Positions 8,141-54,654 of a stretch of DNA of 64,000 nucleotides are shown piece by piece. Location: NCBI RefSeq assembly GCF_031177825.1, contig NZ_JAPSKE010000004.1:248001-312000 (forward strand). The letters run 5' to 3'. A program made the translations under genes and the position numbers. The notes beneath the pieces were generated by a model. It was given only the letters and a program-made list of their open reading frames with translations. It did no database searches and was not told the DNA's origin. The stretch is from Paenibacillus sp. Its GTDB lineage: Bacteria; Bacillota; Bacilli; Paenibacillales; YIM-B00363. The first letter of the stretch is position 1. Every line of letters starts with the position of its first letter.

Positions 8141-9880
8141 TCATTTTCCAAGCAGGAGGTCTTCCCTTCGCTCTTTCGGCAGCAAAAAGTCAAAGTCGCA
8201 TCCCAAATTCGCCTGAAGGACGCGTTCCTGGAACAGGTACCCGTATCCCCGATCATAGTGGGGACGCGGGGGCTGCCAAGCCCGACGACGCTCCGCCAGT
8301 TCCTCCGCCGGCACGAGCAGCGCGAGGCGCCTCTCGGCGACGTCGAGCTCGATCTCGTCACCGTCCTGCACGAGCGCGAGCGGCCCGCCGATCGCCGCTT
8401 CCGGCGCGACATGCACGACGAGCGCGCCGTACGAGGTGCCGCTGATGCGCGCGTCGGAGAGGCGCACCATGTCGCGCACGCCGCGCTTCAACAGCTTCGA
8501 CGGAATCGGAATTTGCCCGATTTCCGGCATCGCCGGCGCCCCCTTCGGACCCGCGTTCTTCAGCACGAGCACGCTGTTCTCGTCGACGTCGAGCGCCGGG
8601 TCGTCGATGCGCGCCGCCAAGTCCGCGGGGCTATTGAAGACGACCGCGCGGCCGCGATGCCGCTTCAGCCCCGGGGAGACGGCCGACTGCTTGATCAAGG
8701 CGCCGTCCGGCGCCAGATTGCCCTGCAGCACGGCGATGCCGCCCTGCGGATCGAGCGGCGCCTCGAGGCTGCGGATGACGTCGCGGTTCAGCGTACGCGC
8801 GGAAGCGATATTTTCCCGAATCGTTCGCCCCGTCACCGTCAAGCAATCCCCGTTCAGCAGCGGCTCCAGCTCCTTCATCAGCGCCGGCACGCCGCCCGCC
8901 TCGAAATACTCCTCCATCTGGTATTGCCCCGACGGTCGAAGATTGAGCAGCAGCGGCGTCTCCGCGCTCAGCTCGTCGAATCGCCGCAGCGGCAGCTTGA
9001 GGCCGAGGCGGCCGGCGATAGCGACGAGATGAATGATCGCGTTCGTCGAGCCGCCGCTCGCCATCGTGACGCGAATCGCGTTGTCGATCGCGTCCGCCGT
9101 CATGATCTCGCGCGGGCGAAGATCGCGCCGGACGAGCTCCACGATTCTCTTCCCCGTCCGCTCCGCCAGATGCTTCCGCCGGCTGTCCGGCGCCGGAATC
9201 GCGGCGCAGCCGGGCAGCGCCATGCCGATCGCCTCGGCGATCGACGCCATCGTGCTCGCCGTCCCCATGACCATGCAATGCCCGTCGCTGCGGCAGATCG
9301 CATCCTCGGCGACGGCAAGCTCTTCGTCGGTCAGATTGCCCGCCTTATGCTCCAGCGTGAAGCCGTAACAATCCGTGCACGCGCCGAGGCTGCGCCCGTT
9401 CAGCCGCCCGTTCAGCATCGGTCCTCCCGTCAGGACGATCGAGGGAAGGTTTGCGCTCGCGGCCGCCATCAGCTGCGCCGGCACCGTCTTGTCGCACCCG
9501 CCGAGCAGCACGACGCCGTCGATCGGATGCGCCTTCATCATCTCCTCGGTATCCATCGCCATCAGATTGCGCAGCAGCATCGTCGTCGGCTTCACGTACG
9601 GCTCGCCGATCGAGATCGTCGGAAATTCCATCGGCACGCCGCCGGCCTGCCAGACGCCGCGTTTCACGTATTCGACGAGCTCGTTGAAGTGCGAATGACA
9701 TTTGTTCAGCTCGCTGAACGTATTGCAGATGCCGATGACCGGCTTCTTCAAATCCTCGTCCGTGTACCCCATCGACTTCGTGAACGATCGATGAATGAAG
9801 CCCCATAATTCCTTTTCTTGAAAATACTTCTCGCTCCTCAGCCCGCCGCCGGGGCCAGACTTCTGATGCTCCTCGGACAC
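8141..9880 (-). CDS. IlvD/Edd-family sugar-acid dehydratase
   Basis: The 579-residue product belongs to the [2Fe-2S] dehydratases that remove water from aldonic acids to give 2-keto-3-deoxy acids. Three cluster-binding cysteines are visible: C52 in G-I-C-N-T, C129 in G-G-C-D-K-T and C202 in D-G-H-C. The length and the 73-residue spacing of the last two equal those of Rhizobium L-arabinonate dehydratase, as does the order of P-I-D-G, G-G-S-T-N-A and S-D-A-R-I-S-G-T, so a sugar-acid substrate is more likely than dihydroxyacid (IlvD). A GTG start was chosen because AGGGGAG lies 6 bases upstream; an ATG at 9905-9907 overlapping the previous stop is possible. As the last gene of operon A it follows a putative lactonase and dehydrogenase, fitting the third step of non-phosphorylative sugar oxidation. 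The exact sugar is unknown. Confidence 0.85.
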   Translation of the reverse strand: MSEEHQKSGPGGGLRSEKYFQEKELWGFIHRSFTKSMGYTDEDLKKPVIGICNTFSELNKCHSHFNELVEYVKRGVWQAGGVPMEFPTISIGEPYVKPTTMLLRNLMAMDTEEMMKAHPIDGVVLLGGCDKTVPAQLMAAASANLPSIVLTGGPMLNGRLNGRSLGACTDCYGFTLEHKAGNLTDEELAVAEDAICRSDGHCMVMGTASTMASIAEAIGMALPGCAAIPAPDSRRKHLAERTGKRIVELVRRDLRPREIMTADAIDNAIRVTMASGGSTNAIIHLVAIAGRLGLKLPLRRFDELSAETPLLLNLRPSGQYQMEEYFEAGGVPALMKELEPLLNGDCLTVTGRTIRENIASARTLNRDVIRSLEAPLDPQGGIAVLQGNLAPDGALIKQSAVSPGLKRHRGRAVVFNSPADLAARIDDPALDVDENSVLVLKNAGPKGAPAMPEIGQIPIPSKLLKRGVRDMVRLSDARISGTSYGALVVHVAPEAAIGGPLALVQDGDEIELDVAERRLALLVPAEELAERRRAWQPPRPHYDRGYGYLFQERVLQANLGCDFDFLLPKERREDLLLGK

Positions 9881-12246: not shown

Positions 12247-14589
12247 TCAATGAACGATGAGATTGCCTGCACTATGCGAGATGCCGGCCCCTTCCGGCGG
12301 TAGCGCGGATCGGTCTACCCGTTCCTCGATGCAGCCATTGATAAAGAAGTAGCCGCCCGACCCGACGCCGCTTGCGGCGACGGCGAACCGACCGCCCTCG
12401 AAGCGCGCGCCGACCGCCCTCAGCGACAGACGGCCGCCTTCGACCTGGAAGTGCGACGTCGCCGCATCGCCCGCCGCGCTTTCGCAGCTTCCGTAGTGCA
12501 GCTCGAACGCGCCGGACGAAGCGTACTTAACGAATGCCTTCTCGACGTTCGATCCGCGAAGCGCGGCGCCCCCGTCCAGCGACAGCCGCTGCCGGTCTTC
12601 GCCGACGAGCGTCCGGTCCCACGCCCCGGTGAAGACGAACCCGCAGTTCTCGAGTCCGCCGCCGATGACCGCGACCTCCTTGCTGCCGACGCGAACGATC
12701 CCGCCCGCCGGGGCGGCGCCCCGGAACCAGCAATGATGCAGCGTCAATCGGCGAATGCTTCCGATATTGACGTTCTCTACGTTGCGGAATTCGCAATTCG
12801 CGAACGTCACGTCCGCCTCGACCGGCGTGAGGCCGACGTTGGCGCTGCGGATCGGCCTTGCGATCTCGTACCCGTTCAGCATGCCGAAGGAGCAGCCGTC
12901 GATCACGTTCGGTCGGCGCGTGCGCGAAGAACTCTGGGACAGCGTGATCATATTGTCGGCCGTGCACCCTCGCATCTGAAGCCCGTCGACGTTCGCCCAG
13001 ATCGAGCCGGAGTTGGCGAGCGACGCCTTCGAGATCGCATAGCAATCTTCCAACGTCAGATCGGTAAGCTTCTTGTTCGCGACGATGCGCGTCGCGATAT
13101 GCTTCTTGACCGTAATTCGCTTCGCGCTGTCTCCCCAATGCGTGCCGCTGTTCGCGAACGACAGCAGTCCGGAATTGCCGATGTAGACGAGGTCGTGCTC
13201 GAACTGGCCGTGCGTGACGAACGGGCCGTAGTCGTCTCCGTCGCCGTGGCAATTTTCGACGAGGCAATACGCGGCGCACGTGAAGTCGTTCAAGTGACGG
13301 GCGTTGCTCGTGTTGCAATTGCGGACGTTGCCGTACAACACGTTCAGCTGTTGAGTTAAATACCCGGTCCCGCCCCAATCGCGCTCCTCCGGATTGATCA
13401 ACTCGCAGCTCTCCGTCACGTAGCGGGAGTTATACCGCCGCTGCACGACCGGCCAGAACACCTTCGTCGCCCGGATGCCGGAGACGTCGCACTCCACCGC
13501 GAATTCGTAAGCGACCGGGTTCGAGCCGATCTGGTCCCACGTCTCGAACGGACGCTGGCTCGTCGACTGCGTCGGCGGCACCGGCACGCCGACGAAGTTC
13601 ATATTGCGGACGTGGCACCGGAAGACCGGGTTCATTTTCTTATAAGTAATCGTCCGACCGGCATCCAGCGTCCACCCGCACTTGTAGTTGACCCGAATAT
13701 GCGTAGCGTCGACGATCTCCGTGACCTTCACCAGATAGTCGAGCTCGCGCTGCGCCCGGCCGCCGGGAAGCGCCGAAATTTGGGCGATCCACCAGTCGTC
13801 GACGGCGAACATCGAAGCGCTCGGCACTTCGAGGATGTCGCTCCCCTCGGGAATCGCCGCGGACAGCGTGACGGCGGTCGTCGGCCCTGCGGGCGTGCCT
13901 TGGAAAAACAGCACCGCGCCGAACGGATTGTCGAGCGCATTCAGCTCGATGCCGTCCGTCGTCACGCGGCGCCCGCCGAAGTCGACCTCGAGGAAGCTTC
14001 GGCGGAACACGTGGCGGCGGACGAAGTTGAGGTCGGTATGCGCTTCGATGCGGCGGATCGAAGGATCGTTCGCCATCGCGTCGAGCGCGTCGTCCGCGTT
14101 CGTCGCCGGTCCGAAGAGGCCGAACCAGCGGAAGTCCGCGACGCCGTCGTGCAGCGTCTCCCAGGCTCCCGGCGCGTCCGCCGAAGGACGGTGCACGGTG
14201 CCGCCGTCGTCCGGCTTCATGCTGTCCGGCACCCACCGGACGAGCTTGCCTCCGCCGTCCCCGGGCATATAATACCCTGCGACGTACGTCAGGGCGTTCG
14301 GAGACAGGCGGCTCGTATTCAGCGATAACAGCGTCTGTACGTCCGGGACGGCTTCCATCCTCGCCGGGGGCGTCGCGCCATGGACGGCCGGGAACGGATC
14401 CGTCCCTTGAGGCGTCTGTTCCGCATTCCCCTCCGGATTCGGCGCATCGCCCTGCGTCGACTCGGCCAGCACCGCCCCGCCTCCCAACATACTGCCGACG
14501 ACGACCGCGCCTGCGGCTCCCAGCACCTTAAGCGCCTCGCGTCGGCTTAAGATCGACTCCGGCTTCGCATCCCGCTTTTTCTCGTTCAT
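12247..14589 (-). CDS. Tat-exported right-handed beta-helix protein
   Basis: The 780-residue product starts with a twin-arginine signal (S-R-R-E-A-L-K followed by a hydrophobic A-A-G-A-V-V-V-G core and V-L-A as probable cleavage site). After a linker it shows the repeating short beta-strand pattern of a pectate-lyase-like parallel beta-helix, with many N/C-rich turns (G-N-V-R-N-C-N, V-E-N-C-H-G-D-G, F-A-N-C-E-F-R-N). Such proteins are polysaccharide lyases, epimerases or hydrolases; no family-specific catalytic set was recognised. The ATG (14587-14589) overlaps the stop codon of tatA by four bases (ATGA), so the pair is translationally coupled. An apparent upstream extension of the frame lies inside the tatA and propeller genes and is rejected. 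It is probably the main extracellular enzyme of operon A. Confidence 0.85.
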   Translation of the reverse strand: MNEKKRDAKPESILSRREALKVLGAAGAVVVGSMLGGGAVLAESTQGDAPNPEGNAEQTPQGTDPFPAVHGATPPARMEAVPDVQTLLSLNTSRLSPNALTYVAGYYMPGDGGGKLVRWVPDSMKPDDGGTVHRPSADAPGAWETLHDGVADFRWFGLFGPATNADDALDAMANDPSIRRIEAHTDLNFVRRHVFRRSFLEVDFGGRRVTTDGIELNALDNPFGAVLFFQGTPAGPTTAVTLSAAIPEGSDILEVPSASMFAVDDWWIAQISALPGGRAQRELDYLVKVTEIVDATHIRVNYKCGWTLDAGRTITYKKMNPVFRCHVRNMNFVGVPVPPTQSTSQRPFETWDQIGSNPVAYEFAVECDVSGIRATKVFWPVVQRRYNSRYVTESCELINPEERDWGGTGYLTQQLNVLYGNVRNCNTSNARHLNDFTCAAYCLVENCHGDGDDYGPFVTHGQFEHDLVYIGNSGLLSFANSGTHWGDSAKRITVKKHIATRIVANKKLTDLTLEDCYAISKASLANSGSIWANVDGLQMRGCTADNMITLSQSSSRTRRPNVIDGCSFGMLNGYEIARPIRSANVGLTPVEADVTFANCEFRNVENVNIGSIRRLTLHHCWFRGAAPAGGIVRVGSKEVAVIGGGLENCGFVFTGAWDRTLVGEDRQRLSLDGGAALRGSNVEKAFVKYASSGAFELHYGSCESAAGDAATSHFQVEGGRLSLRAVGARFEGGRFAVAASGVGSGGYFFINGCIEERVDRSALPPEGAGISHSAGNLIVH

Positions 14590-14780
14590 TCCATGTCCTC
14601 CTTGCGCGTCGATTTCGATTCCTGCGACTCCGCGTCTTCGACAAGCTTCCTCGCCCCCGACTTGAACTCTCGGATCGTCGTCCCGACCGCCCGCCCCAGT
14701 TCGGGAAGCTTCTTCGGCCCGAACAACAGCAGCGCGATCGCGACGACGAGAACGAGTCCCGGCACTCCGATACTCGGCAT
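14586..14780 (-). CDS. tatA: TatA-type twin-arginine translocase subunit
   Basis: At 64 residues this is a full-length small TatA: an N-terminal membrane helix (V-P-G-L-V-L-V-V-A-I-A-L-L-L), the F-G-P-K-K-L-P-E-L-G hinge and amphipathic helix, and a charged tail. TatA multimers form the passage for folded Tat substrates with TatC. The AAGGAGG site overlaps the stop codon of the propeller gene, and its own stop overlaps the start of a Tat-signal protein. No tatC is in the window, so it must work with a TatC encoded elsewhere. Dedicated TatA/substrate pairing inside a carbohydrate operon is unusual. Confidence 0.93.
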   Translation of the reverse strand: MPSIGVPGLVLVVAIALLLFGPKKLPELGRAVGTTIREFKSGARKLVEDAESQESKSTRKEDME

Positions 14781-14792
14781 GCGCTCTCCTCC

Positions 14793-16670
14793 TTATCGCT
14801 TGTATAACGACGTACCGATCGAGAAGTACGTCCGCCCTTCCCGTTCCCCCGTCGACAACCATACGTCCTTCGCCTCCGCCGTCACCCGGTCGAGCGCAGG
14901 ATCGTAATGAAATAACGTTCCGACGGACGTGCCCACGATGCCGACGTTCCCCTCGAACCGCAGCGACCCGCCCCGCCAGAAGTGGCCGCGCGAGCTCCAA
15001 TCGAACGGTACGATCTCTACGGCGCGGACGAGCCGCCAGTCGTCGACGTCGAACTCGAACAGCTTCCCCGCCGTTACGCCCCATAATCGTCCGTTCGGAG
15101 CGAACGCAAGCGCGGAGATCGCCTTCTCCCCCGGGACCGGGATCGTCCTCCGAAGCTCCCGTCGCGTCGCCGGATCCCAGGCGAGCAGCAACGCCTCCGC
15201 ATCGATCGGCTTCACGCCCAACCCGCCCCAGACGCAGCCGCCGAGATACAGCGTCCCGGACCGGTACGCCAGCGAGGTGACGCTTTGCGTTCCGGCGATG
15301 CCCGGGTATCGATCGATGCGGCGCTCCGCGGGCCGAACGAGCGCCAGCGCCCCTCCGAGCCGCCCGTAGTCCGGCACCGTGCCGACGGCGAGCGCATCGC
15401 CCGCGGCGCAGAAGGCAAAGGGCCGATCTTGGCCTTCATCTTGAAGCGAGGCGAGCTTCGTCGGATTGACCCCGGGGACCCACGGCCGTTCCGGGTCGTA
15501 TTCGTACAGAACCGCCTTCGGATACACGCCGAGATAAAGCTTATCGCCGAACGCCGCCATCCCTTCGATCTGTCCGAAGGCGCGGGCGTCCGACAGCGCG
15601 TCGGTCGCCGGGTCGAAGCTCGCGAAGCCGCCGGCGAAATAGCCGCCGCAATAGATGCGGCCATCGGGCCCCGGCGCCAACGAATGAATCGTCACGGGTC
15701 CGCCGGGCAACCCCGGATCCCGTTCCTCGCGGCGTCCGGTCGTCGGATCGTACGTCCAATAGCTGCCGTCGCGCCGGATGCAAATCAATCGGCTCGCCGC
15801 GGTTGCGGCCGAAGCGCCCTCGGGCGCGATCCAGCCGAAATCGACGCAGGGACCCTCAAGAGGCACGCCGACGTCCTCGGATCGCCTCGTCGCGGCATCG
15901 TACCGATGAAGCCGTTCGTCTTTCGCGAAGTAGACGCTTCCATATGCGTCCGGCGGCGATACGGCCAGCCCCATCGCGCCGGGGATTTCGTCGATCCAAA
16001 CTTCTTCGGTAAGGTCGTACACGCGCATCGTATTCGACGGCGTCAGCCGGATATAGAGGTACGGCCAAGCGATGTCCAGGTCGTACACCATGCTGTCGTT
16101 CGCGGCGGCGACTGGCAGCGGGATTTCCTTCCGTTCCCCGCTGTCGACCCGCATCGCGACGAGCCGCGGGGCGACGGTGCCGATCCCCATATACAGCGCG
16201 CCGCCGTACGCCTTCATGCAGCGCACGTACTGCTCGCCCTCGACGATGACGCCGTAATCGCGGAACGCGCCGGTTCGAGGATCGTAGCGGAACGCTTTGC
16301 CGCCGGGGTAACAACCGCCGTAGATCGCGCCGTCGTCGTCCGCCGCCAGCCGCCACGAATAATGCTCCCCCTCGATCGCCGTCCCAAGATGCTCCAAGCC
16401 GTTCCCGGGCGGCGTCGTACGATAGCGGTACAGATGGCCGTCGGCGACCGCGTAAGCCGCATCCCCCGTCGCGACGACGCCCCAGCAATGCTTCGCTTCC
16501 GCCATCTCGAACCGATGGAGACATTCTCCCGAATCCGAGTCGATGACGAAAAACAAGCACCGCTCGCCCGAAGACACGGCATAGATGGAGTCGCGCCCGT
16601 TCGCCCGTCCGTAGGCGGCCGCCCAGACGCAGATGCCGCGGATCGGCGTCCCGATTCGAACCGCGCTCAT
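14793..16670 (-). CDS. Cytosolic beta-propeller protein of unknown function
   Basis: The 625-residue product has no signal peptide and consists of repeated blades with the pattern G-x-[LI]-Y-x-G plus Y-D-P-x-T-G or F-D-P-A-T (for example Y-R-T..., Y-D-P-R-T-G, Y-D-A-A-T-R, Y-D-P-T-T-G, F-D-P-A-T-D, Y-D-P-E-R, W-D-P-A-T-R, Y-D-P-A-L-D). This is typical of seven- or eight-bladed WD40/streptogramin-lyase-like propellers. The ATG (16668-16670) overlaps the stop of the oxidoreductase by four bases. Cytosolic propellers in carbohydrate operons may be lyases, lactonases or binding proteins. No catalytic residues were recognised, so no function is given. Confidence 0.75.
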   Translation of the reverse strand: MSAVRIGTPIRGICVWAAAYGRANGRDSIYAVSSGERCLFFVIDSDSGECLHRFEMAEAKHCWGVVATGDAAYAVADGHLYRYRTTPPGNGLEHLGTAIEGEHYSWRLAADDDGAIYGGCYPGGKAFRYDPRTGAFRDYGVIVEGEQYVRCMKAYGGALYMGIGTVAPRLVAMRVDSGERKEIPLPVAAANDSMVYDLDIAWPYLYIRLTPSNTMRVYDLTEEVWIDEIPGAMGLAVSPPDAYGSVYFAKDERLHRYDAATRRSEDVGVPLEGPCVDFGWIAPEGASAATAASRLICIRRDGSYWTYDPTTGRREERDPGLPGGPVTIHSLAPGPDGRIYCGGYFAGGFASFDPATDALSDARAFGQIEGMAAFGDKLYLGVYPKAVLYEYDPERPWVPGVNPTKLASLQDEGQDRPFAFCAAGDALAVGTVPDYGRLGGALALVRPAERRIDRYPGIAGTQSVTSLAYRSGTLYLGGCVWGGLGVKPIDAEALLLAWDPATRRELRRTIPVPGEKAISALAFAPNGRLWGVTAGKLFEFDVDDWRLVRAVEIVPFDWSSRGHFWRGGSLRFEGNVGIVGTSVGTLFHYDPALDRVTAEAKDVWLSTGEREGRTYFSIGTSLYKR

Positions 16671-17668
16671 CGGTATTCCAACACGACGCCCGTCGTGCCT
16701 TGAGGATCCTCCGTAAGCATCCGGAACGCGTCGTCCGCTTGGCGAACCGGCACGACGCGGGAGAGCAGCGGTCCGATCCGCACCTTGCCTTCCGCCGCCA
16801 AGCGCAAGTACGCCTCCATATTGCGGCCTTCCGTCCACCGCGCGAAGCCGATCGGGTAGTCGACGCCCTGCCGTTCGTACGTATCGTCGTACCGACCCGG
16901 ACCGCCGGCGCGCGAGATAAGCACCGTCGCTTCCTTGGCGAACATCAGCTCCCTCGAGAAATCCATCTTCAGGTCGCCGACCACGACGACCTTCCCGCGG
17001 TCCCGGATCCAACCGAGGCTTCGATCGATCAAATCCCCGGTTTTCGCGCTGACGCACAGCACGACGGCGTCGGCACCGAGGCCGACCGCAGCCTCGGCGA
17101 TGCAAGCCTCTACGTCGTCAGAGCTCCGGCAGACGTTCGGAATGCCGAGCGATTCGGCGAGCGCGCACCGCGCTTCCGACACGTCGCAAGCGACGACGCG
17201 GTATCCCGCGGCGAGCGCGATTTGCGCGAGCAGCTGACCGAGGATGCCGAGCCCCACGACGACCGCGGTTTCGCCGAATTGCAGTCCTGCCTGCCGCAGC
17301 CCGTGAATCGCGATGGCGCCGAGACCGACGGTCGACGCGTCCGCGGTCGTCACGTTGTCGGGAATCGGAACGGCCAGATGCCGCGGAACGCTCAACCATT
17401 CGGCATGTCTAACGTAGGGCGCGCCGTAGCAGGCGACGCGGTCCCCGACCTTCAGATGCGTCGCGAGCGGACCGACCTCTTGGACGACGCCCGCCGAGCT
17501 GTACCCAAGCGAGACCGGATGCTTATGCGCCGCGCGGCTCATCATCTGTTCCGTACCGGGGCTGATGGCGGAGTATGCGCTCTTCACCAATACGCCGTTC
17601 GCCTCGACCGTCGGCATCGGCACGTCGGCCACGCGGATTTTTCCTTCTTGCGTCACTACTGCCTTCAT
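16667..17668 (-). CDS. MDR-family (zinc-binding-dehydrogenase-like) oxidoreductase
   Basis: The 333-residue medium-chain dehydrogenase has the GroES-like N-terminal half and a Rossmann fold (G-L-G-I-L-G, then acidic residue in V-A-C-D). The usual catalytic zinc site is not visible: where Cys and G-H-E are expected there are S-P-G-T-E and G-Y-S-S-A-G. This matches the subgroup of sugar-related MDR proteins with S-P-G-T-E motifs. The ATG at 17666-17668 is preferred since AAGGAG lies just before it; a longer version starting at 17689 would place the site inside the gene. It follows the ABC importer and is a candidate for the first oxidation of the imported sugar. Confidence 0.8.
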   Translation of the reverse strand: MKAVVTQEGKIRVADVPMPTVEANGVLVKSAYSAISPGTEQMMSRAAHKHPVSLGYSSAGVVQEVGPLATHLKVGDRVACYGAPYVRHAEWLSVPRHLAVPIPDNVTTADASTVGLGAIAIHGLRQAGLQFGETAVVVGLGILGQLLAQIALAAGYRVVACDVSEARCALAESLGIPNVCRSSDDVEACIAEAAVGLGADAVVLCVSAKTGDLIDRSLGWIRDRGKVVVVGDLKMDFSRELMFAKEATVLISRAGGPGRYDDTYERQGVDYPIGFARWTEGRNMEAYLRLAAEGKVRIGPLLSRVVPVRQADDAFRMLTEDPQGTTGVVLEYR

Positions 17669-17707
17669 GGCCTCTCTCCTTGTCTGCATGCGGAATCGCG
17701 AGCGGAT

Positions 17708-18586
17708 CTACTCTTTCAAAGCGCCGATCATGACGCCGTTGACGAAATATTTCTGCAGGAACGGATAAATGACGAGAATCGGAACGGTCGCGACGACGAT
17801 CGTCGCGTACTTGATCGCCTCGCTTACCTTGGACAATTCGTCCTGCGCGATGCCGGACGCCAGGTTTTGCGCCGACGATTGGATCAAGATTTCCCGCAGG
17901 ATGAGCTGAAGCGGGAACAGCGCGCGGTCCTGCAGGAAGATCATCGCGGAAAACCAGCTGTTCCAATGGCCGACCGCATAGAACAGCGTCATCACGGCGA
18001 GCACCGGCTTCGAGAGCGGCAGCACGATCGACCACAAGACGCGGAAGTCGTTCGCCCCGTCGATCTTCGCCGATTCGACGAGTCCTTCCGGAATCGACTG
18101 GAAGAAGGTGCGCATAACGATCAGGTTGAAGGCGCTGATCGCGCCGGGCAACAGCAGCGCCCATCGCGTATCGAACAGCCCTAATTCCCGTATGTTCAAA
18201 TAACTCGGAATGAGCCCTCCGCTGAAAAACATCGTGAAGACGATGAACGCCATGACGGCGCCGCGGCCGTACAACTGGCTCCGCGATAGCGGGTAAGCGC
18301 CTAACGTCGTCATCACCAGATTGATCGCCGTGCCGACGCCGACATAGAAGAACGTGTTGAGGTAAGCGTCCCAAATCATCGAATCGGCGAACACGAATCG
18401 GTACGCCTCCAGATTGAGGCCCACCGGCCATAAGGAAACTTCGCCCGCCGCGATCGCGTGCGCGTCGCTGAACGAGGAGACGACGACGAACCAGACCGGG
18501 TATAGGAAGAGGAACGAACAGACGGTCAAAAAGATGACGTTGGCGCCGTCGAACAACCTTCCCGCCCAGCTTGCTTGCTTGTACAT
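17708..18586 (-). CDS. Carbohydrate ABC transporter permease (AraQ/YtcP type)
   Basis: The 292-residue inner-membrane protein has six hydrophobic segments and the ATPase-contact EAA loop E-S-A-K-I-D-G-A-N-D at about residues 180-190, followed by I-V-L-P-L. The end G-A-L-K-E is typical of the LplC/YtcP group that works with large lipoprotein binding proteins. It pairs with the permease encoded 16 bases upstream. No ATPase gene accompanies the two permeases, as is usual where a shared MsmX-like ATPase serves several importers. Confidence 0.93.
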   Translation of the reverse strand: MYKQASWAGRLFDGANVIFLTVCSFLFLYPVWFVVVSSFSDAHAIAAGEVSLWPVGLNLEAYRFVFADSMIWDAYLNTFFYVGVGTAINLVMTTLGAYPLSRSQLYGRGAVMAFIVFTMFFSGGLIPSYLNIRELGLFDTRWALLLPGAISAFNLIVMRTFFQSIPEGLVESAKIDGANDFRVLWSIVLPLSKPVLAVMTLFYAVGHWNSWFSAMIFLQDRALFPLQLILREILIQSSAQNLASGIAQDELSKVSEAIKYATIVVATVPILVIYPFLQKYFVNGVMIGALKE

Positions 18587-18602: not shown

Positions 18603-19568
18603 TTACCACAGACTGTTTTCGGTCGTCTTGCGGCTGATGCGGTTCGCGAGAAGCAGCAGCGCGAAGTTGATCGCGGAATTGAATAGGCCGACGGCCGCGG
18701 AGAAGCTGTAATCCGCGTTAATGATGCCCCTGCGGTAGACGAAGGTCGAGATCACGTCGGCCGTCTCGTACGTCGCCGCATTGTACAGCAGGATAATTTT
18801 GTCCCATCCCACGTTCATGAGGGACCCGATGTTTAGGATGAGCAGGATCAAAATCGTCGGGAGAATGCCGGGCAGCGTAACATGCACGAGCTGCTTCCAG
18901 CGGTCGGCGCCGTCGATGACGGCCGCCTCGTACAGACTTGGATTGATCCCCGCCAACGCGGCGAGGAAGATGATCGAGTTCCAACCGACGCTCTGCCACA
19001 ATCCGGAGCCGATATAGAGGGTACGGAACCATTCCGGCAGGATGAGGAACGAGATCGGCTCCGAAATGAAGCCCACAGCCATTAGGACGCGGTTCATGAT
19101 GCCGTCGGGCTGCGTGAAGTCGACGATCATGCCGGCGATGACGATCAACGAGATGAAATGAGGCAAGTAGGATAGCGTCTGAACGACGGATTTCAATCGC
19201 TTCAAGCGCAGCTCGTTGAGCAGCAAGGCGAAGGCGATCGAAGCCGGGAAAATGAAGACGAGCGAGTATACGCTGAGCAGCAGCGTGTTTCGAAGCAATC
19301 GAACGAAATAGTGGCTTTCGAAAAAGTGCAGGAAATGCTTGAATCCGACCCACGGGCTGTCCCATACGCCTTGGTACGGGTTGAAATTTTTAAACGCGAT
19401 CAGCGCGCCGTACATCGGCTTATATTCGAAGAGCAAAAAGTAGACGACGACCGGAAGCAGCATGAGATACAAATATTTGTTGGCGGCGATCCGCCGGAGC
19501 AGGATGCCGTATCTTCTACGATGGTCGAGCCGACGAGCCGCGCCGGTCGCCCCCATGGGCGGTGCCAT
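18603..19568 (-). CDS. Carbohydrate ABC transporter permease (LplB type)
   Basis: The 321-residue permease has six membrane segments, the LplB-like N-terminal stretch Y-K-P-M-Y-G-A-L-I-A-F-K-N-F and the EAA loop E-A-A-V-I-D-G-A-D-R-W-K. It forms the heterodimeric channel with the next gene product. AGGGGG lies 7 bases before the ATG. It is the second gene of operon A after the binding protein. Confidence 0.93.
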   Translation of the reverse strand: MAPPMGATGAARRLDHRRRYGILLRRIAANKYLYLMLLPVVVYFLLFEYKPMYGALIAFKNFNPYQGVWDSPWVGFKHFLHFFESHYFVRLLRNTLLLSVYSLVFIFPASIAFALLLNELRLKRLKSVVQTLSYLPHFISLIVIAGMIVDFTQPDGIMNRVLMAVGFISEPISFLILPEWFRTLYIGSGLWQSVGWNSIIFLAALAGINPSLYEAAVIDGADRWKQLVHVTLPGILPTILILLILNIGSLMNVGWDKIILLYNAATYETADVISTFVYRRGIINADYSFSAAVGLFNSAINFALLLLANRISRKTTENSLW

Positions 19569-19636: not shown

Positions 19637-21295
19637 TCAATTCGCGGAGGTAAAGCGTTCGTAAGCGATTTGATATTGCGCGAGAACGTCTTCGATCCCC
19701 ATTCGCTTCAGCTCGGCGAGGAAGGCGTCGTATTCCTCGATCGCTTTACGGCCCATGACGAACGCGTTGATCGACTCGTCGACGTACGTCGCGACGTCGG
19801 CCATGATCGGCACGATGACGTCGTTCTCCTCCGGAAGGAATTGGACCGGCGGCATCTTCTTGTCGAAATCGATGAAATCGCCGTACAGTTCAAGCGGATT
19901 TTCCATCTGCCCGTTCGCCTCTCGAATTTGCTGCGGGTAGCTTGGGTCGACGACCGTCGCCCAGCTGCCGCCGCCGATCGTGTGGCTGAGCAGCTTTTCG
20001 GTGTTCGTGGTACCGTCTTCGGGATGGGTCACCTCGCGCTTGTACACCGGCTTGCCGTCCGCCAGGTCGTAGGAGACGCCGTCGACCCCGAAGTTGTTGA
20101 GGATGATGCCCTCTTCCGAATACTGGTAGTCGAGCCACTTCACGACTTCCTCCGGATGCTCCGTCCGCGCGGACACCGCGATGCCGATACCGGCGGCGGG
20201 ATAACGGAACGACACGTGCGATTGGTCGCCGTTCGGTCCGATCGGCGGCAGCATGGGCGCGATCTTGAAGGTCGGATGCTTGCCCGCCATCAATGTCGTG
20301 AAGTTGCCCATATAAGATCCCGACCAGCCGAACCAGGCGCCCGCAACGTCCGAGGTCACCTTCTCGGTGAGCGTATCGAAGGTGTTGTCGACCAGATAGT
20401 TCGGATCGAGGAGTTTCTCTTGGTACAGCTTGTTCAGGAAGGCGACGACGTCCTTAAAGCGCGGGTCGTACGGACCGTAGTCGACCTTGCCGTCTTCGAC
20501 GAAGAAGTCGTATTGCACGCCGAACGCCGGCGCGAACTGAAACATGACGTTATTGAGATGGACCGTGACGAACGGAATTTCGTCTTGCTTCCCGTTGCCG
20601 TTCGGATCGCCGTCGCGGAAGCTCTTCAGGACGTTATACCAATCGTCGGTCGTCTTCGGCGCTTCGAGGCCGAGCTTGTCGAGCCAATCCTGGCGAATTT
20701 GCGGAAACATCTGCGTCAAGTTCGTGTTGTCGAGCACGATGTTCGGCATGTAGTAAATATGCCCGTCCGGCGAGGTGATTTGGCCGCGGATCGCGGGATT
20801 ATCTTCGAGAATTCTCGAGAAGTTCGGCGCATGCTCCTTCAGCAGCTCCTCGAGCGGCAGCAGCGCGCCTTGGGTGCCGTACTTGCTTGCTTCCTTATCC
20901 CAATTCGATGTGTAGACCATGTCCGGAAGCTGGCCGGAGGACATCATGAGCGTGAACGCCTCCGCGCTCGCCGCTTCCGCGGCGTGCTGGAACGCGATAT
21001 GGATGTTCGTATTCTCCTCCATCTTCCGGAAGGAAAACTTGTCGTTGAAGTCCTTGCCTTTGAAGTTGCCGCCGCTCGGCGCCCACAGCGACAATTCCAG
21101 CTTGTCGGCCGCGATGGGAAGCGTCAGCCCTCCGACGTCGCGCCGAGCCGCGCCGGCGTCGGTCGTCGCCCCCGGCTCCGGGGAAGCGGACGGAGCGGGG
21201 GGTTCTTCGGTATTTGCGGAACATGCGGATAATACGACCGAACCCGCCATCGTCAGCGATAAACCAAGCAAAGCGTACCGTTTCGTCTTATTCAC
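19637..21295 (-). CDS. Extracellular solute-binding lipoprotein of the operon A importer
   Basis: The 552-residue product starts at a GTG with GGGAGG 7 bases upstream and has a lipoprotein signal peptide (L-L-G-L-S-L-T-M-A-G-S-V-V-L-S-A-C), with the lipobox cysteine at about residue 26 and a proline-rich linker. The mature part is a large type-1 binding protein of the LplA/YtcQ group. It would capture an oligosaccharide outside the membrane and hand it to the two permeases. It is the first gene of operon A, directly behind the TTGACA-18-TATAAT promoter. A longer frame reaching 21451 has no ribosome binding site. Confidence 0.92.
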   Translation of the reverse strand: MNKTKRYALLGLSLTMAGSVVLSACSANTEEPPAPSASPEPGATTDAGAARRDVGGLTLPIAADKLELSLWAPSGGNFKGKDFNDKFSFRKMEENTNIHIAFQHAAEAASAEAFTLMMSSGQLPDMVYTSNWDKEASKYGTQGALLPLEELLKEHAPNFSRILEDNPAIRGQITSPDGHIYYMPNIVLDNTNLTQMFPQIRQDWLDKLGLEAPKTTDDWYNVLKSFRDGDPNGNGKQDEIPFVTVHLNNVMFQFAPAFGVQYDFFVEDGKVDYGPYDPRFKDVVAFLNKLYQEKLLDPNYLVDNTFDTLTEKVTSDVAGAWFGWSGSYMGNFTTLMAGKHPTFKIAPMLPPIGPNGDQSHVSFRYPAAGIGIAVSARTEHPEEVVKWLDYQYSEEGIILNNFGVDGVSYDLADGKPVYKREVTHPEDGTTNTEKLLSHTIGGGSWATVVDPSYPQQIREANGQMENPLELYGDFIDFDKKMPPVQFLPEENDVIVPIMADVATYVDESINAFVMGRKAIEEYDAFLAELKRMGIEDVLAQYQIAYERFTSAN

Positions 21296-21364: not shown

Positions 21365-21460
21365 GAAATCCCTTCCGCGGTTCCCACCACCACCACCTAA
21401 TTCCCAATTGATTTCATTCCCCCGGGAAAAAACATGAATAAATGCTTTCATTGAGCTTTC

Positions 21461-21479
21461 TGATGTATCACTGATGTAT
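21461..21479. promoter_or_regulatory. Paired operator repeats TGATGTAT at the operon A promoter
   Basis: Two copies of TGATGTAT start 11 bases apart (21461-21468 and 21472-21479), one helical turn, just downstream of the -10 box, at the expected transcription start. The same octamer occurs, as ATACATCA on the plus strand, at 22991-22998 upstream of the GntR/SBP regulator. Together these suggest the binding site of that regulator. Confidence 0.5.
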
Positions 21480-21483
21480 TTTG

Positions 21484-21513
21484 ATTATAATGCTCCCGAG
21501 AAAATGTTGTCAA
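21484..21513 (-). promoter_or_regulatory. Strong sigma-A promoter of operon A
   Basis: On the minus strand a perfect TTGACA (21508-21513) and a perfect TATAAT (21484-21489) are 18 bases apart. It lies directly after the terminator of the upstream regulator and about 190 bases before the binding-protein start. Confidence 0.8.
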
Positions 21514-21523
21514 CACAAAAAAA

Positions 21524-21547
21524 GCCATTTACCTGACGGTAAATGGC
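21524..21547 (-). terminator. Terminator of the GntR/SBP regulator gene
   Basis: A perfect 10-base-pair stem (21524-21533 with 21538-21547) with a TGAC loop is followed on the minus strand by seven T. It separates the regulator from operon A. Confidence 0.88.
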
Positions 21548-21567: not shown

Positions 21568-22962
21568 CTACGGATTCGATTCAATGATAAGTTCTTCTAA
21601 TCTCATGTGAAGATCTCTCTCATCGGATATGCCGGACCAATATTCTTTCAGCCGGTTGCTGATCGATTTCAAGGACGGAATGGAAAGCCCCAAATCCTTA
21701 TGATACATAAACGACGGGAACAGTTCTCGGTACATCAAATATCTTCCGGGACGGTTCAACTGATCCGTCGTCCCCTGCTCCGCCACCAGCTTTCTTGCGG
21801 GAATGCTCGTCGTCCTCTCGCGAACGACGAGCTGGGCTTCCGGCGATGCCAAGAAGTCGGCGAACGCCAGCGCCGCCTCCTTCTCCTTCGCGCGCCGGTT
21901 GACGCCCACGCCGATCGATAGCAGCAGCGTCTTCTGCTCCCCCCCGCGGCGCAGCAGCGGAACCGGCGAAATATCGTATTCGAGCGGAAGCGACTTGAAG
22001 GCGTTCAGGCTGAAATACGTCGTCAAAATCATAGACACCTTCTCCTGCATGAACAACGAAACCGAATCGTCCTCGTTCGTTCCCGAGAAATACTTGGGGA
22101 AGATGTCATGATCGTTCACGATATCGCTGAATTTACGCAAGCTGTAGGCCAGCTTGGGACCGATGCGGACGCGGCCCGCCTCGTCTCGGCTCGTCTCCAT
22201 CCCGCTTTGCAATAAAAACAAGGAATATCGATTCAGCGATGCCGGAACGAAATAGACCGAATGTCTTCCGCTGTGCGCCGTCAGCTTCTGCGCGGTGTCC
22301 ACGAGATCGTCCCACGTCCAATAGCTGTCCGGTTCCGGCAGACCCGCTTCCCGGAAGTGCCCCTTGTTGTAACAAAGCACGACCGGCGAGAAAGATACGG
22401 CTCTTGCGTACAGTCGACCGTCGCAACGGAACGCTTCGCTGGCGATCGGGTAGATGCCTTCGTCCGGCTCGAGCGGCTCAAGCAGCGAGAGTCGTTCGTC
22501 GTTTTCGACCAGCTCCTGGAATTGAGAATTACTGAAGGAGACGACGTCCAGCAAGCCGCTCGATAACATCTCGCCCGCCGAACTCACGTGTTCGAAGAAA
22601 TCTAGGGGAATGGCGCGAACGCGAATGCCGGGATGCCTGCGATGAAATTCCTCCAACAGCTCGGTCATCTGAATGTCGTCCGTCAGCGACGGGTTGCACC
22701 CGAAATTGACGGTGACGACCTGCCGATCCTTCGAGACCATGCTGCCGACGCGATCGATCTTCACGATCAGCCCTTCGGCTACCAGCTCGTCCAATCCTTT
22801 GCGGACGGACTTGTTGCTGAGGTGGAATTGTTTCGCCAGCGCGCTCTCAGCCGGCAAATACGATCCAGGCTTGCGAGTCCCGTTGATGATTTCTGAGCGG
22901 AGTGTGGAGACCATATAATCCAATTTCTCTTGAAACGACAGTCGATCTGATTGACCACTCAT
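21568..22962 (-). CDS. Regulator: GntR winged helix fused to a solute-binding-protein domain
   Basis: The 464-residue protein has a GntR-type DNA-binding domain (about residues 8-75: P-A-E-S-A-L-A-K-Q-F, S-N-K-S-V-R-K-G-L-D-E-L). A type-1 extracellular solute-binding-protein fold follows from about residue 85 to the end (L-L-E-E-F-H-R-R-H-P-G-I-R-V, Y-N-K-G-H-F-R-E-A-G, Y-W-T-W-D-D-L, A-L-A-F-A-D-F-L-A-S-P-E-A-Q). It has no signal peptide, so the binding domain works inside the cell as the ligand sensor, instead of the usual UTRA or LacI domain. The ATG at 22960-22962 has GAGG 8 bases upstream; the one at 22966-22968 is too close. It precedes operon A, whose promoter carries repeats also found at this gene's promoter. 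Confidence 0.88.
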   Translation of the reverse strand: MSGQSDRLSFQEKLDYMVSTLRSEIINGTRKPGSYLPAESALAKQFHLSNKSVRKGLDELVAEGLIVKIDRVGSMVSKDRQVVTVNFGCNPSLTDDIQMTELLEEFHRRHPGIRVRAIPLDFFEHVSSAGEMLSSGLLDVVSFSNSQFQELVENDERLSLLEPLEPDEGIYPIASEAFRCDGRLYARAVSFSPVVLCYNKGHFREAGLPEPDSYWTWDDLVDTAQKLTAHSGRHSVYFVPASLNRYSLFLLQSGMETSRDEAGRVRIGPKLAYSLRKFSDIVNDHDIFPKYFSGTNEDDSVSLFMQEKVSMILTTYFSLNAFKSLPLEYDISPVPLLRRGGEQKTLLLSIGVGVNRRAKEKEAALAFADFLASPEAQLVVRERTTSIPARKLVAEQGTTDQLNRPGRYLMYRELFPSFMYHKDLGLSIPSLKSISNRLKEYWSGISDERDLHMRLEELIIESNP

Positions 22963-22990
22963 GTACATTACCTCAATTTTTCAATTCGAT

Positions 22991-22998
22991 ATACATCA
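22991..22998. promoter_or_regulatory. Candidate auto-operator of the GntR/SBP regulator
   Basis: ATACATCA is the reverse complement of the TGATGTAT repeats at the operon A promoter and lies about 30 bases upstream of the regulator start codon. Confidence 0.4.
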
Positions 22999-23143
22999 CA
23001 TGTTACATTTTGCGGAAAACCTCCGCGAATGTCAATGTGTGTATCGTTAGCAAGTCCCGGATCTCGTCGATCATCCCCTTGCCGTACGTTCGAACCGCTC
23101 CGCCGGGACAAGGTTCGTTCAGGGCGAAACCGAACCTCGCCGA

Positions 23144-49606: not shown

Positions 49607-51529
49607 TTAATCGTTCGCGGTTTTGATCAGCTTCATATTGACGATCGTGATCGCCAGAATGACGGCGAACATGGCGACGCCGAGCGCGGACGCGTACCCG
49701 AGATCGTTGAAGATCGTCGCGGCGTAATACATCTGAAGCGCCGGGACGTACGTCGAATCCATCGGTCCGCCGCCGGTGACGATCAAGATGCCGCCGAAAT
49801 CTTGAATGATGCCGATCAGCGCCAGAATGACGAGCAGCTTGAATTGCCCGGACAAGAGCGGCAGATGGATCGAGCGGATGATGCGCCAGAGGCTGGCGCC
49901 GTCGATCTTCGCGGACTCTACGAGCTCCTCCGGAATCGCTAGCAGTCCCGCGTAAAACACGAGCAGCTGGAGGATGCCGATGAACGGGAAGCCGATGAAG
50001 ATGACCGCCCAGAGCGCCGTGTTCGGGTCGCCCAACCATGCGTGTCCCGGCAGGCCGACCGCCTCCAACACGTTGTTGATGAGGCCGACGTTAGGGTCGT
50101 ACAGGTTTTGCCAGATCAGCAGTCCGGCGACCGCCGGTATGACCATGGACGCGACGAACGCGGTGCGGTACCAGTACTGGGCCTTCTTGCTGCGCAGATG
50201 ATAGATGAGCTCCGCCGCGATCAAGGGAGGCAGCAGCGACTTGACGATGCCCGTGACGATCAAGAGCGCCAGGTTGCCGAGCCCCTTCGTGACGTACGGA
50301 TCGTTCGCCATACGCTCGAAGTTGTCGAGACCGACGAATACCGTCCGGCCGCCCGGATTCCAGTCGTACAAGGAGTGGAACAATCCGGAAAACGCCGGAT
50401 AATACAAGAAGGCGAACACAAGCGCGAAGCTCGGCGCAAGCGCGAGATAGATATACTTGGAACGCCACATCTCGACGAAAACGCCGAGCTTCTGCCGACG
50501 CTTCATCCACAGCAGCCCGAAGGCGACGATCGCAGCGCCGGCCGCGGCGGCCGCGATCCACGAGAACAGCCGGATCGTCGCGCCGCTCTTCGCCGAGGCG
50601 ACGATCTCCCCGACGTCGTAAGCGAACAGCGCGCCGTTGCCCGTCCCCGCGTACAGCATCGTCGCGTCCGAATTGAACTTCACTTGCCGGCCCGCGCCGT
50701 CGACCCGAGCCGTCCAGAGCGGTTTCCCGTCGGCCGCGAAGACGTAGAAGTTGCCCAAGAAGTCCGAAGCCGCGACATATCCGCCGTCCGCCGACACGTC
50801 CACGTCCGTGACGACGTCCTTCACGGAATAGACCGTCGTCTGATTCCCCTCCCCGTCGAAGGCGACGGCCTCGCTCCGGGACGTGCCGACGACGACGGCG
50901 CCGTCGTTCGAAACGCCGATCGCTTCGATCGTCCCGGATACCCCGACCTTGCGCAATAACGCGCCTTCCGCGTCCAGCACATACGCGTACTGGTCCGGCG
51001 CGCCGACCGCCACGAACCGCCCGTCCGGCGACACCTGCACATGCGACGGCGTAATGCCGATGTCCGCCTCGCGAACCGTCTCGCCCGAGGCGACGTCGAA
51101 GAACGCCACCGTCGATCGCCCTTGCGCGATATAGACGGCGACCGCGCCGTCCTTCGACGCGGCGACGCTCTTCACCTGCCGCTTCACGTCCAGCTCCCAG
51201 ATCGGGTTACCCTCTGCGTCAACCTTGTAGAGACGCCGGTCGTCGGACGAGACGAGCAAGCTGCCGTCCGTCAAGAACGCCACGCCGGTCACGACGTTGC
51301 GCGTCTCGAACGCGAACTGCTCGGCGCCGTCGGCTTGGAAGGAATACGCTTTCGCGCCGTAGCTGCCGACCGCGATTCTCGTTCCGTCCTCGGATAACGA
51401 CAAAGATGTAATATTCTCCGGTTCCGCCAGCGACCACCCCCCGTTCCCGTGCGCCGCTCCCGTAAACAAGAACGAAGCGCAGATCGCGAGGCAGCCCGCC
51501 AACGCTGCGATTTTGCCGCGTACCGACAT
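49607..51529 (-). CDS. Fusion of an extracytoplasmic beta-propeller with a MalF-type ABC permease
   Basis: One uninterrupted 640-residue frame contains a signal peptide (A-L-A-G-C-L-A-I-C-A-S-F-L-F), then a WD40/PQQ-like beta-propeller (about residues 30-315). Its blades carry D-G-T-R-I-A-V-G, L-T-D-G-S-L-L-V-S, S-P-D-G-R-F-V-A-V-G and S-A-D-G-G-Y-V-A-A. A membrane helix (about 318-342) and a short basic linker lead to a complete MalF-like permease (about 355-640) with the EAA loop E-S-A-K-I-D-G-A-S-L. The propeller would sit outside the membrane on top of the channel. GGGGGAG lies 5 bases before the ATG. Both halves are in one frame with no internal start of good quality, so this is a true fusion. 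It follows the binding protein and precedes the partner permease. Confidence 0.88.
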   Translation of the reverse strand: MSVRGKIAALAGCLAICASFLFTGAAHGNGGWSLAEPENITSLSLSEDGTRIAVGSYGAKAYSFQADGAEQFAFETRNVVTGVAFLTDGSLLVSSDDRRLYKVDAEGNPIWELDVKRQVKSVAASKDGAVAVYIAQGRSTVAFFDVASGETVREADIGITPSHVQVSPDGRFVAVGAPDQYAYVLDAEGALLRKVGVSGTIEAIGVSNDGAVVVGTSRSEAVAFDGEGNQTTVYSVKDVVTDVDVSADGGYVAASDFLGNFYVFAADGKPLWTARVDGAGRQVKFNSDATMLYAGTGNGALFAYDVGEIVASAKSGATIRLFSWIAAAAAGAAIVAFGLLWMKRRQKLGVFVEMWRSKYIYLALAPSFALVFAFLYYPAFSGLFHSLYDWNPGGRTVFVGLDNFERMANDPYVTKGLGNLALLIVTGIVKSLLPPLIAAELIYHLRSKKAQYWYRTAFVASMVIPAVAGLLIWQNLYDPNVGLINNVLEAVGLPGHAWLGDPNTALWAVIFIGFPFIGILQLLVFYAGLLAIPEELVESAKIDGASLWRIIRSIHLPLLSGQFKLLVILALIGIIQDFGGILIVTGGGPMDSTYVPALQMYYAATIFNDLGYASALGVAMFAVILAITIVNMKLIKTAND

Positions 51530-53532: not shown

Positions 53533-54654
53533 TCATGCGTATGCATCTAGCTCCGTCGTGCTGTCGCGCACGATCAGCCTCGGGACGATCTCTTCCTTCA
53601 GCAGCCGCCCCTCCTCGTGCTGCTTCCATTCGAAAATGAGCATCTCCGCGGCTCTGCGTCCGACGGACAGCGTATTTTGATTGATCGTCGTCAAACTCGG
53701 CTCCAAATAAGCGCTGATCAACGTATCGTCGTATCCGATCACGCTGATGTCCTCGGGAATGCGAAGTCCGCCGTCCTTGATCGCCTGCAGCGCGCCGAAC
53801 GCCTTGAAGTCGCTCGTCACGAACATCGCCGTCGGCGGCTCCGGCAGCGAGAGCAGCTTCCTCGCTCCTGCGTAGCCCATTTCCGCCGATTCCTCGTCCA
53901 TCTCGATGACGGAGACGAGATCCGGGTCGAAGTCGACGTTATATTGCGACAGCGCCAGCCGATAGCCCTGCAGCCGCAGCGAAAACTCCTGATTCATCTC
54001 GAGCGCCGACTTCCCCGTCAGCACGATGCCGATGCGGCGATGACCGAGAGACAGCAGATGCTGCGTCGCCAAGAAGCCGCCCGTCAAGTTATCGACGATG
54101 ACGTACGGAATTTGGAGCTGCGGGTAATAGAAATGGACGGTGACGAGCTTGCGCACCTCTTCCTTCCAGCGGCGCAGCAAATCCGGATTCGTGTTCGCGT
54201 TCGGCAGCAGAACGAAGCCCGTCTTCTCGTCTTTCGCGGGAAGCGCGTTCTTACTGCCGACGTCCAAGAGATGAAACCGGATGCCGTGTTCCTCGCACAC
54301 CTCTTGGATGCCGGCGGCGAGATCCCCGTAGAATCGATGGCTGAACGTCCCGAGCGGAATCGAGGAATGCGCGAGATAGATGCGCTCAAGCGCGATCGTC
54401 TTGTCCTTCGGCTTCCCGTCCGATTCCAGGCGAATGAACGTGCCCCTTCCGCGCACGCGATAAATATATCCTTCGTTCGCAAGCTCCGTCAGCGCCCGGC
54501 GCGTCGTAATTTCGCTGGTATTGTATAATTTTGCGAATTCGACCTGCGTCGGCAGCGGTTCGTTCAGATCGAACGCCCCCGCCGTGATCTTTCGCTTCAA
54601 ATCGTCGACGATCGTTTGATACATCGGGGTTTTCTCAAGTTTCAATGATAGCAC
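53533..54654 (-). CDS. GntR-HTH / LacI-type sugar-sensing repressor of operon B
   Basis: The 373-residue product has a GntR winged helix (about residues 5-75: [28 protein letters not shown]) and a LacI-type ligand domain from about 90 ([28 protein letters not shown]). It starts with GTG, AAGGAG 6 bases upstream. A perfect AAGTATACTT palindrome lies before it and two related sites bracket the operon B promoter, so it likely represses itself and operon B until a sugar is present. Confidence 0.9.

Follow-up and report, generated by a model that had tools for sequence, protein, structure and literature searches.

A GntR-type regulator with an importer-type solute-binding domain as its sensor and a predicted tandem operator in Paenibacillus

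Regulators of the GntR family are divided by their C-terminal domain into six subfamilies, i.e., FadR, HutC, MocR, YtrA, AraR and PlmA, in which an N-terminal winged helix is followed by a C-terminal effector domain, the same order as in the regulator described here; none of the six, as given in the excerpted text, carries a solute-binding protein (SBP) domain of the ABC type, and their operators are usually palindromic (PMC4494728). Direct-repeat operators are known as exceptions for FarR, NagQ and NanR (PMC4494728, excerpt), while 27% of the MocR regulons have direct repeats in twos or threes, and for these proteins a head-to-tail arrangement has been proposed (PMC5320631, excerpt).

The AraR-type GntR-LacI regulators, of which two are encoded in the window (the whole stretch of 64,000 nucleotides of Paenibacillus sp. 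DNA analysed here), likewise join a GntR winged helix-turn-helix to a sugar-binding domain resembling periplasmic proteins, but this is a Peripla_BP_3 domain, whereas the regulator of the current study has SBP_bac_1/8. There is precedent for SBP domains as cytosolic sensors, both in Btr/YbbB of Bacillus and in SgrR of E. coli. In SgrR a helix-turn-helix of a different type is joined to an SBP-like domain of the SBP_bac_5 type, and Btr/YbbB acts as an activator. As in our case, Btr/YbbB has an importer-type SBP domain and its gene adjoins an importer, upstream of feuA, but it combines a FeuA-like, siderophore-type SBP with an AraC DNA-binding domain instead of a GntR one (PMC3896406, excerpt). 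Oligosaccharide SBPs of the MsmE/AbnE type (5f7v, 6rjy) share the fold over the whole sensor, but these proteins serve importers and lack a DNA-binding domain. In the searched, largely open-access literature we found no account of a GntR-SBP fusion; it may be listed in domain-architecture databases. Two things appear to be new, namely a large subfamily of single origin with GntR as the DNA-binding part, and its predicted tandem operator with a conserved position.

The regulator is encoded on the minus strand by an open reading frame of 466 aa (21568-22968), in which the spacing of a GAGG motif, as read by eye, fits the second ATG, at 22962, where the original prediction starts the gene, better than the one at 22968. 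The bases ahead of this probable start are conserved among the orthologs. Membership of the GntR family follows from PF00392 at residues 22-78 (E 1.3e-12, above the cut-off), and in the C-terminal part Pfam found SBP_bac families only, namely SBP_bac_8 at residues 104-398 (E 3.1e-22) and SBP_bac_1 at residues 93-379 (E 7e-19), with none of the FadR, HutC (UTRA), MocR (aminotransferase), YtrA, AraR or PlmA domains. These profiles and the two-lobed fold assign the sensor to the MBP-like (Family 1) proteins. The export signal and lipobox of importer SBPs are absent, the N-terminus being the winged helix and the sensor starting at residue 84. The original prediction of a GntR winged helix joined to a complete SBP fold without a signal peptide is borne out by Pfam, the structural model and the fold match, and its reading of this domain as a cytosolic sensor is supported; an export signal would find no room in the protein. 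The contrast it drew with other GntR proteins of the window also holds, those at 1163-2332 and 53533-54654 being GntR plus Peripla_BP_3 (LacI-type). As full-length orthologs exist at 96%, 58% and 55% identity, and as both domains are encoded at all 60 further loci (picked on purpose from full-length matches) besides the window, the fusion is neither due to chance nor a frameshift artefact. The coordinates of the regulator, its target operon and the predicted control elements are compiled in the table.

Another fusion lies in the window at 49607-51529 on the minus strand, where a 640-aa protein has a beta-propeller at approximately residues 36-280 and an ABC permease domain at residues 439-630. 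This odd fusion is real, as a search of 40 genomes gave near full-length matches of 53-100% identity in 5 of them, counting the present one.

Table. Features of the GntR-SBP regulator locus and of the importer operon (operon A), in window coordinates
Feature	Position	Strand	Basis or remark
Protein with twin-arginine-like leader	12247..14700	-	Beta-helix by eye; no Pfam match; related proteins in 7 more ortholog loci
Beta-propeller-like operon protein	14793..16700	-	Weak Pfam match
Zinc-type dehydrogenase	16667..17689	-	Pfam; in 12 of 15 ortholog loci
Importer permease, YtcP-type	17708..18586	-	Pfam
Importer permease, LplB-type	18603..19568	-	Pfam
Lipoprotein SBP of the controlled importer, LplO-type	19637..21295	-	SBP_bac_1; orthologs of 63-96% in 7 further ortholog loci
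Tandem operator (predicted), ATACATCAGTGATACATCA	21461..21479	-	Direct repeat of two units with a period of 11 bp
Sigma-A promoter of the importer operon	21484..21513	-	TTGACA-18-TATAAT, 12 of 12 matches
Intrinsic terminator at the regulator/importer operon boundary	21524..21547	-	10-pair stem and T tail directly past the stop codon
GntR-SBP regulator gene	21568..22962	-	Frame opens at 22968; ribosome-binding site better spaced for the ATG at 22962
MBP-like solute-binding sensor, cytosolic	21571..22719	-	Residues 84-466; Pfam and fold match
GntR winged helix, DNA-binding	22735..22905	-	Residues 22-78 of the 466-aa reading; PF00392; helices and wing in the model
Single operator unit (predicted), ATACATCA; TGATGTAT on the coding strand	22991..22998	+	Past the -10 of the regulator's promoter
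Regulator gene promoter	23007..23035	-	TTGACA-17-CAAAAT

The AlphaFold2 model of the regulator (16-sequence input) had a mean pLDDT of 84.1 and a pTM of 0.80, and the superposition of its residues 83-466 on Listeria Lmo0181 (5f7v) takes in that entire protein, with Z 35.2, an rmsd of 3.0, 362 aligned residues and 22% identity; Foldseek gave E 1.5e-24 for the sensor against the same structure. Lmo0181 and the arabino-oligosaccharide-binding AbnE are also the PDB sequences nearest to the regulator, and the closest solved relatives of the sensor bind oligosaccharides (cycloalternan in 5f7v, arabinobiose in 6rjy), which points to a saccharide as the ligand class. Since many sensor positions are conserved throughout the family for no evident reason, it is conceivable that the domain has lost the binding of small ligands and instead serves oligomerisation or is read by a partner such as the permease. 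We regard this as unlikely, as the complete two-lobe fold and the residues that are near-invariant in the GntR-SBP family (Y200, N201, W219, N246, R247, Q254 and Y318) suggest that the cleft has been maintained.

Sensors of the SBP type are common rather than exceptional in this order. A match at 1e-10 was present in 45 of 60 related genomes, many of these matches being bare SBPs, and among the picked loci this genome accounts for 9 copies of the fusion and its relative G042 for at least 13. Across 299 genomes of the phylum, searched through at most the best five candidates per genome so that fusions outside the order may be missed, the fusion occurred in three, all of them from this order and one of them the present genome, and three other matches spanned the SBP part only. 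In a tree of 118 proteins (quick method, no bootstrap), the 58 sensor representatives form one clade (support 99) and 41 importer-type (LplO) SBPs a separate group (support 97), and most of the smaller lipoprotein SBPs are nearest to the sensors (grouping support 86). The simplest reading of the single sensor clade is one old fusion with duplication afterwards; the family thus apparently goes back to a single fusion event, with a small, MsmE/AbnE-like SBP as the probable ancestor and wide duplication thereafter.

The hairpin past the stop codon may end the regulator transcript, the terminator search having found one against 2.2 expected in shuffles, a count that is weak alone. Direct repeats (TACATCAGTGATACATCA) start five bases past the -10 of the importer operon, and the double pattern, allowing at most three mismatches, was found once in the window against 0.07 expected. 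In each of four whole genomes a relaxed pattern occurred exactly once, always a short way downstream of the ortholog of the regulator, and the reversed control gave none. The tandem repeat follows TATAAT by 3-5 bp, with a -35 of TTGACN, at each of the 15 distinct ortholog loci (the window, L031, L032, L095-L105 and L107; L033 and L099 denote one place and enter the count as one). Its period is 11 bp in 14 of the 15 and 10 bp in L095, and the elements of L103 and L098 have one mismatch each. The element is absent from all 57 paralog loci and from three relatives of 41-43% identity (L106, L108, L109). We infer that this conserved element is the operator; the predicted site falls within 21440-21520, to which control of operon A by this regulator had been ascribed in advance, and thereby supports that assignment. 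One repeat unit, TGATGT, also lies 20-56 bases ahead of the regulator gene in 15/15 ortholog loci, and the single unit of the window is, from its sequence and position, a likely autorepression site. The region around the regulator start (approximately 22940-22966, TACATGA..AATCA) resembles a degenerate tandem operator as well, with at most two mismatches in 7 of 12 ortholog loci scanned, and is a possible third site. Up to three tandem-like sites occur in one region of L098 (approximately 8565-8860).

Within the stretches examined, the operon next to the orthologous regulator retains an ortholog of the window SBP (63-96% identity) at 8 of the 15 loci and the twin-arginine protein likewise at 8 of 15, the window included in both counts. 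Five loci (L100, L101, L104, L105 and L107) have the same regulator and operator in front of an importer whose SBP is only 27-29% identical over approximately 220 residues, which is a clean case of importer swapping, i.e., non-orthologous replacement. None of the four query genes was found within the stretch of L103, and no importer within that of L095. In L095 a small ORF that by eye resembles TatA (approximately 8660-8840) comes first after the operator, where the other loci have the importer or the dehydrogenase, and the twin-arginine, beta-helix-like gene adjoins it on the far side.

The original prediction suggested that the sensor was recruited from the family to which the binding protein of the importer belongs and may recognise the same oligosaccharide once imported. 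Descent from that binding protein itself, the two co-evolving, would agree with the SBP_bac_1 match of both proteins. This derivation is not borne out, and we consider it extremely improbable: the sensor and the operon A binding protein (19637-21295) align in BLASTP with an E of 0.066 and 21% identity over 175 residues, sensors and importer-type SBPs fall in separate groups of the tree, and at 5 of 15 loci the importer has been exchanged while regulator and operator remained unchanged. The same regulator and operator in front of exchanged importers indicates that the regulator follows the pathway and not the importer. A saccharide that the controlled pathways share, or a product thereof, is the more likely ligand, and one fixed by the importer SBP the less likely.

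Based on these data, we think it probable that the protein is a dedicated, autoregulated, ligand-released one-component repressor of a GntR subfamily outside the six listed. In the scheme we propose, the winged helix would bind the two repeats, 11 bp apart, from just past the -10 into the start region, in a putative head-to-tail arrangement, and the bound regulator would block transcription of the importer-dehydrogenase operon from its strong promoter; binding to the single unit in its own promoter would lead to autorepression. The Venus-flytrap domain, of oligosaccharide-SBP ancestry, would bind the imported saccharide or its product in the cytosol and close, which would lower the affinity for DNA and thus induce the operon. 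Repression and autorepression are suggested by a consensus promoter with a site just past its -10. Direct repeats spaced by one helical turn look like the operators of winged-helix activators, PhoB among them, and this likeness would fit a ligand-closed protein that recruits or remodels RNA polymerase at the tandem site. We judge such activation very unlikely, since a site downstream of the -10 in all 15 orthologs, at a near-consensus promoter, is positioned for a block and not for activation.

The usual GntR site, NyGTNxACNy, is palindromic, whereas the conserved element here is a direct repeat with a weak dyad in each unit. By eye, the unit can also be read as the imperfect palindrome GATRTAYATC, and ordinary symmetric GntR dimers, one on each palindrome, would turn the 11-bp repeat into two adjacent dimer sites. 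The half-conserved dyad, which is perfect in the second unit of L032, agrees with this reading; nevertheless, a pair of dimers placed on one face at a distance of 11 bp would be expected to crowd, paralog units such as TGACTCA and TGTATCA repeat directly without the GATRTAYATC dyad, and inverted repeats at 44 paralogs gave no sharp spacing peak, only a mild rise at 3-5 nt. On balance we find paired symmetric dimers rather doubtful.

Direct repeats were also searched for at these 44 paralog representatives (mutual identity below 70%), using as a strict test a 10-mer repeated with one mismatch within 250 bp upstream, at periods from 5 to 60. Period 11 was found in 7 of 44 and any other period in at most 2, compared with period 11 in 5 of 241 for the 250 bp before other genes of the same loci (Fisher p 0.0006); this figure is exploratory, since the 250-bp length was picked once the result for approximately 140 bp was known, where period 11 did not stand out (6/57 against 3.5 expected, largest 8). 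The remaining 37 of 44 had no 11-bp direct repeat upstream in the strict test, so that this operator form may not be general. In the 300 bp downstream of the gene, period 11 was raised (13/57 against 5.0 expected, largest 8), and so was period 12 (14/57). A new set of 12 paralogs, with 1 upstream case in the strict test and 3 at a looser setting, at which another period also reached 3, neither confirms nor refutes the 11-bp period; of the nine loci with upstream repeats at the looser setting, two (L053 and L086) look by eye like coding sequence. Single cases are more convincing than these counts: TGTATCATATC-TRTATCA repeats occur in L041, L065, L069 and the 53% relative L116, TGACTCAnnnnTGACTCA in L059, L062 and L128 and, with one change, in L058, and in L089, which is only distantly related, one and the same 20-bp tandem repeat is present both at the promoter of the regulator and immediately past the -10 of a lipoprotein SBP gene. 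There is no operator sequence common to the whole family; the 11-bp spacing alone recurs. A broader reading could hold, although we advance it tentatively and at slightly less than even chance, namely that the GntR-SBP proteins are a distinct subfamily in which a Venus-flytrap, imposing no symmetric dimer, would have taken the place of the customary dimer-forming effector domain and would lead to head-to-tail binding at 11 bp, and which would have multiplied in the Paenibacillus/Cohnella order into dedicated cytosolic saccharide sensors with a repeat sequence of its own for each member.

The paralogs, too, have genes for carbohydrate use and transport nearby. An importer gene of the LplO/LplB/YtcP type lies within the stretch at 27 of 57 paralog loci, and the 74 scored immediate neighbours of 44 paralogs (86 called, 12 under 200 aa omitted; L055 gave none) include 10 with CBM_4_9 carbohydrate-binding domains, 6 with S-layer domains and 5 zinc dehydrogenases. 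The family offers a ready set of natural sensors, in which sugar-binding domains of the importer type work in the cytosol and operators are predicted, and it does so in bacteria with many genes for polysaccharide use. With about ten members in one genome, the ligands of unassigned polysaccharide operons become testable through operator and sensor together. Besides, one could test on this family how far the symmetry of the effector domain sets that of the operator in a large family of regulators.
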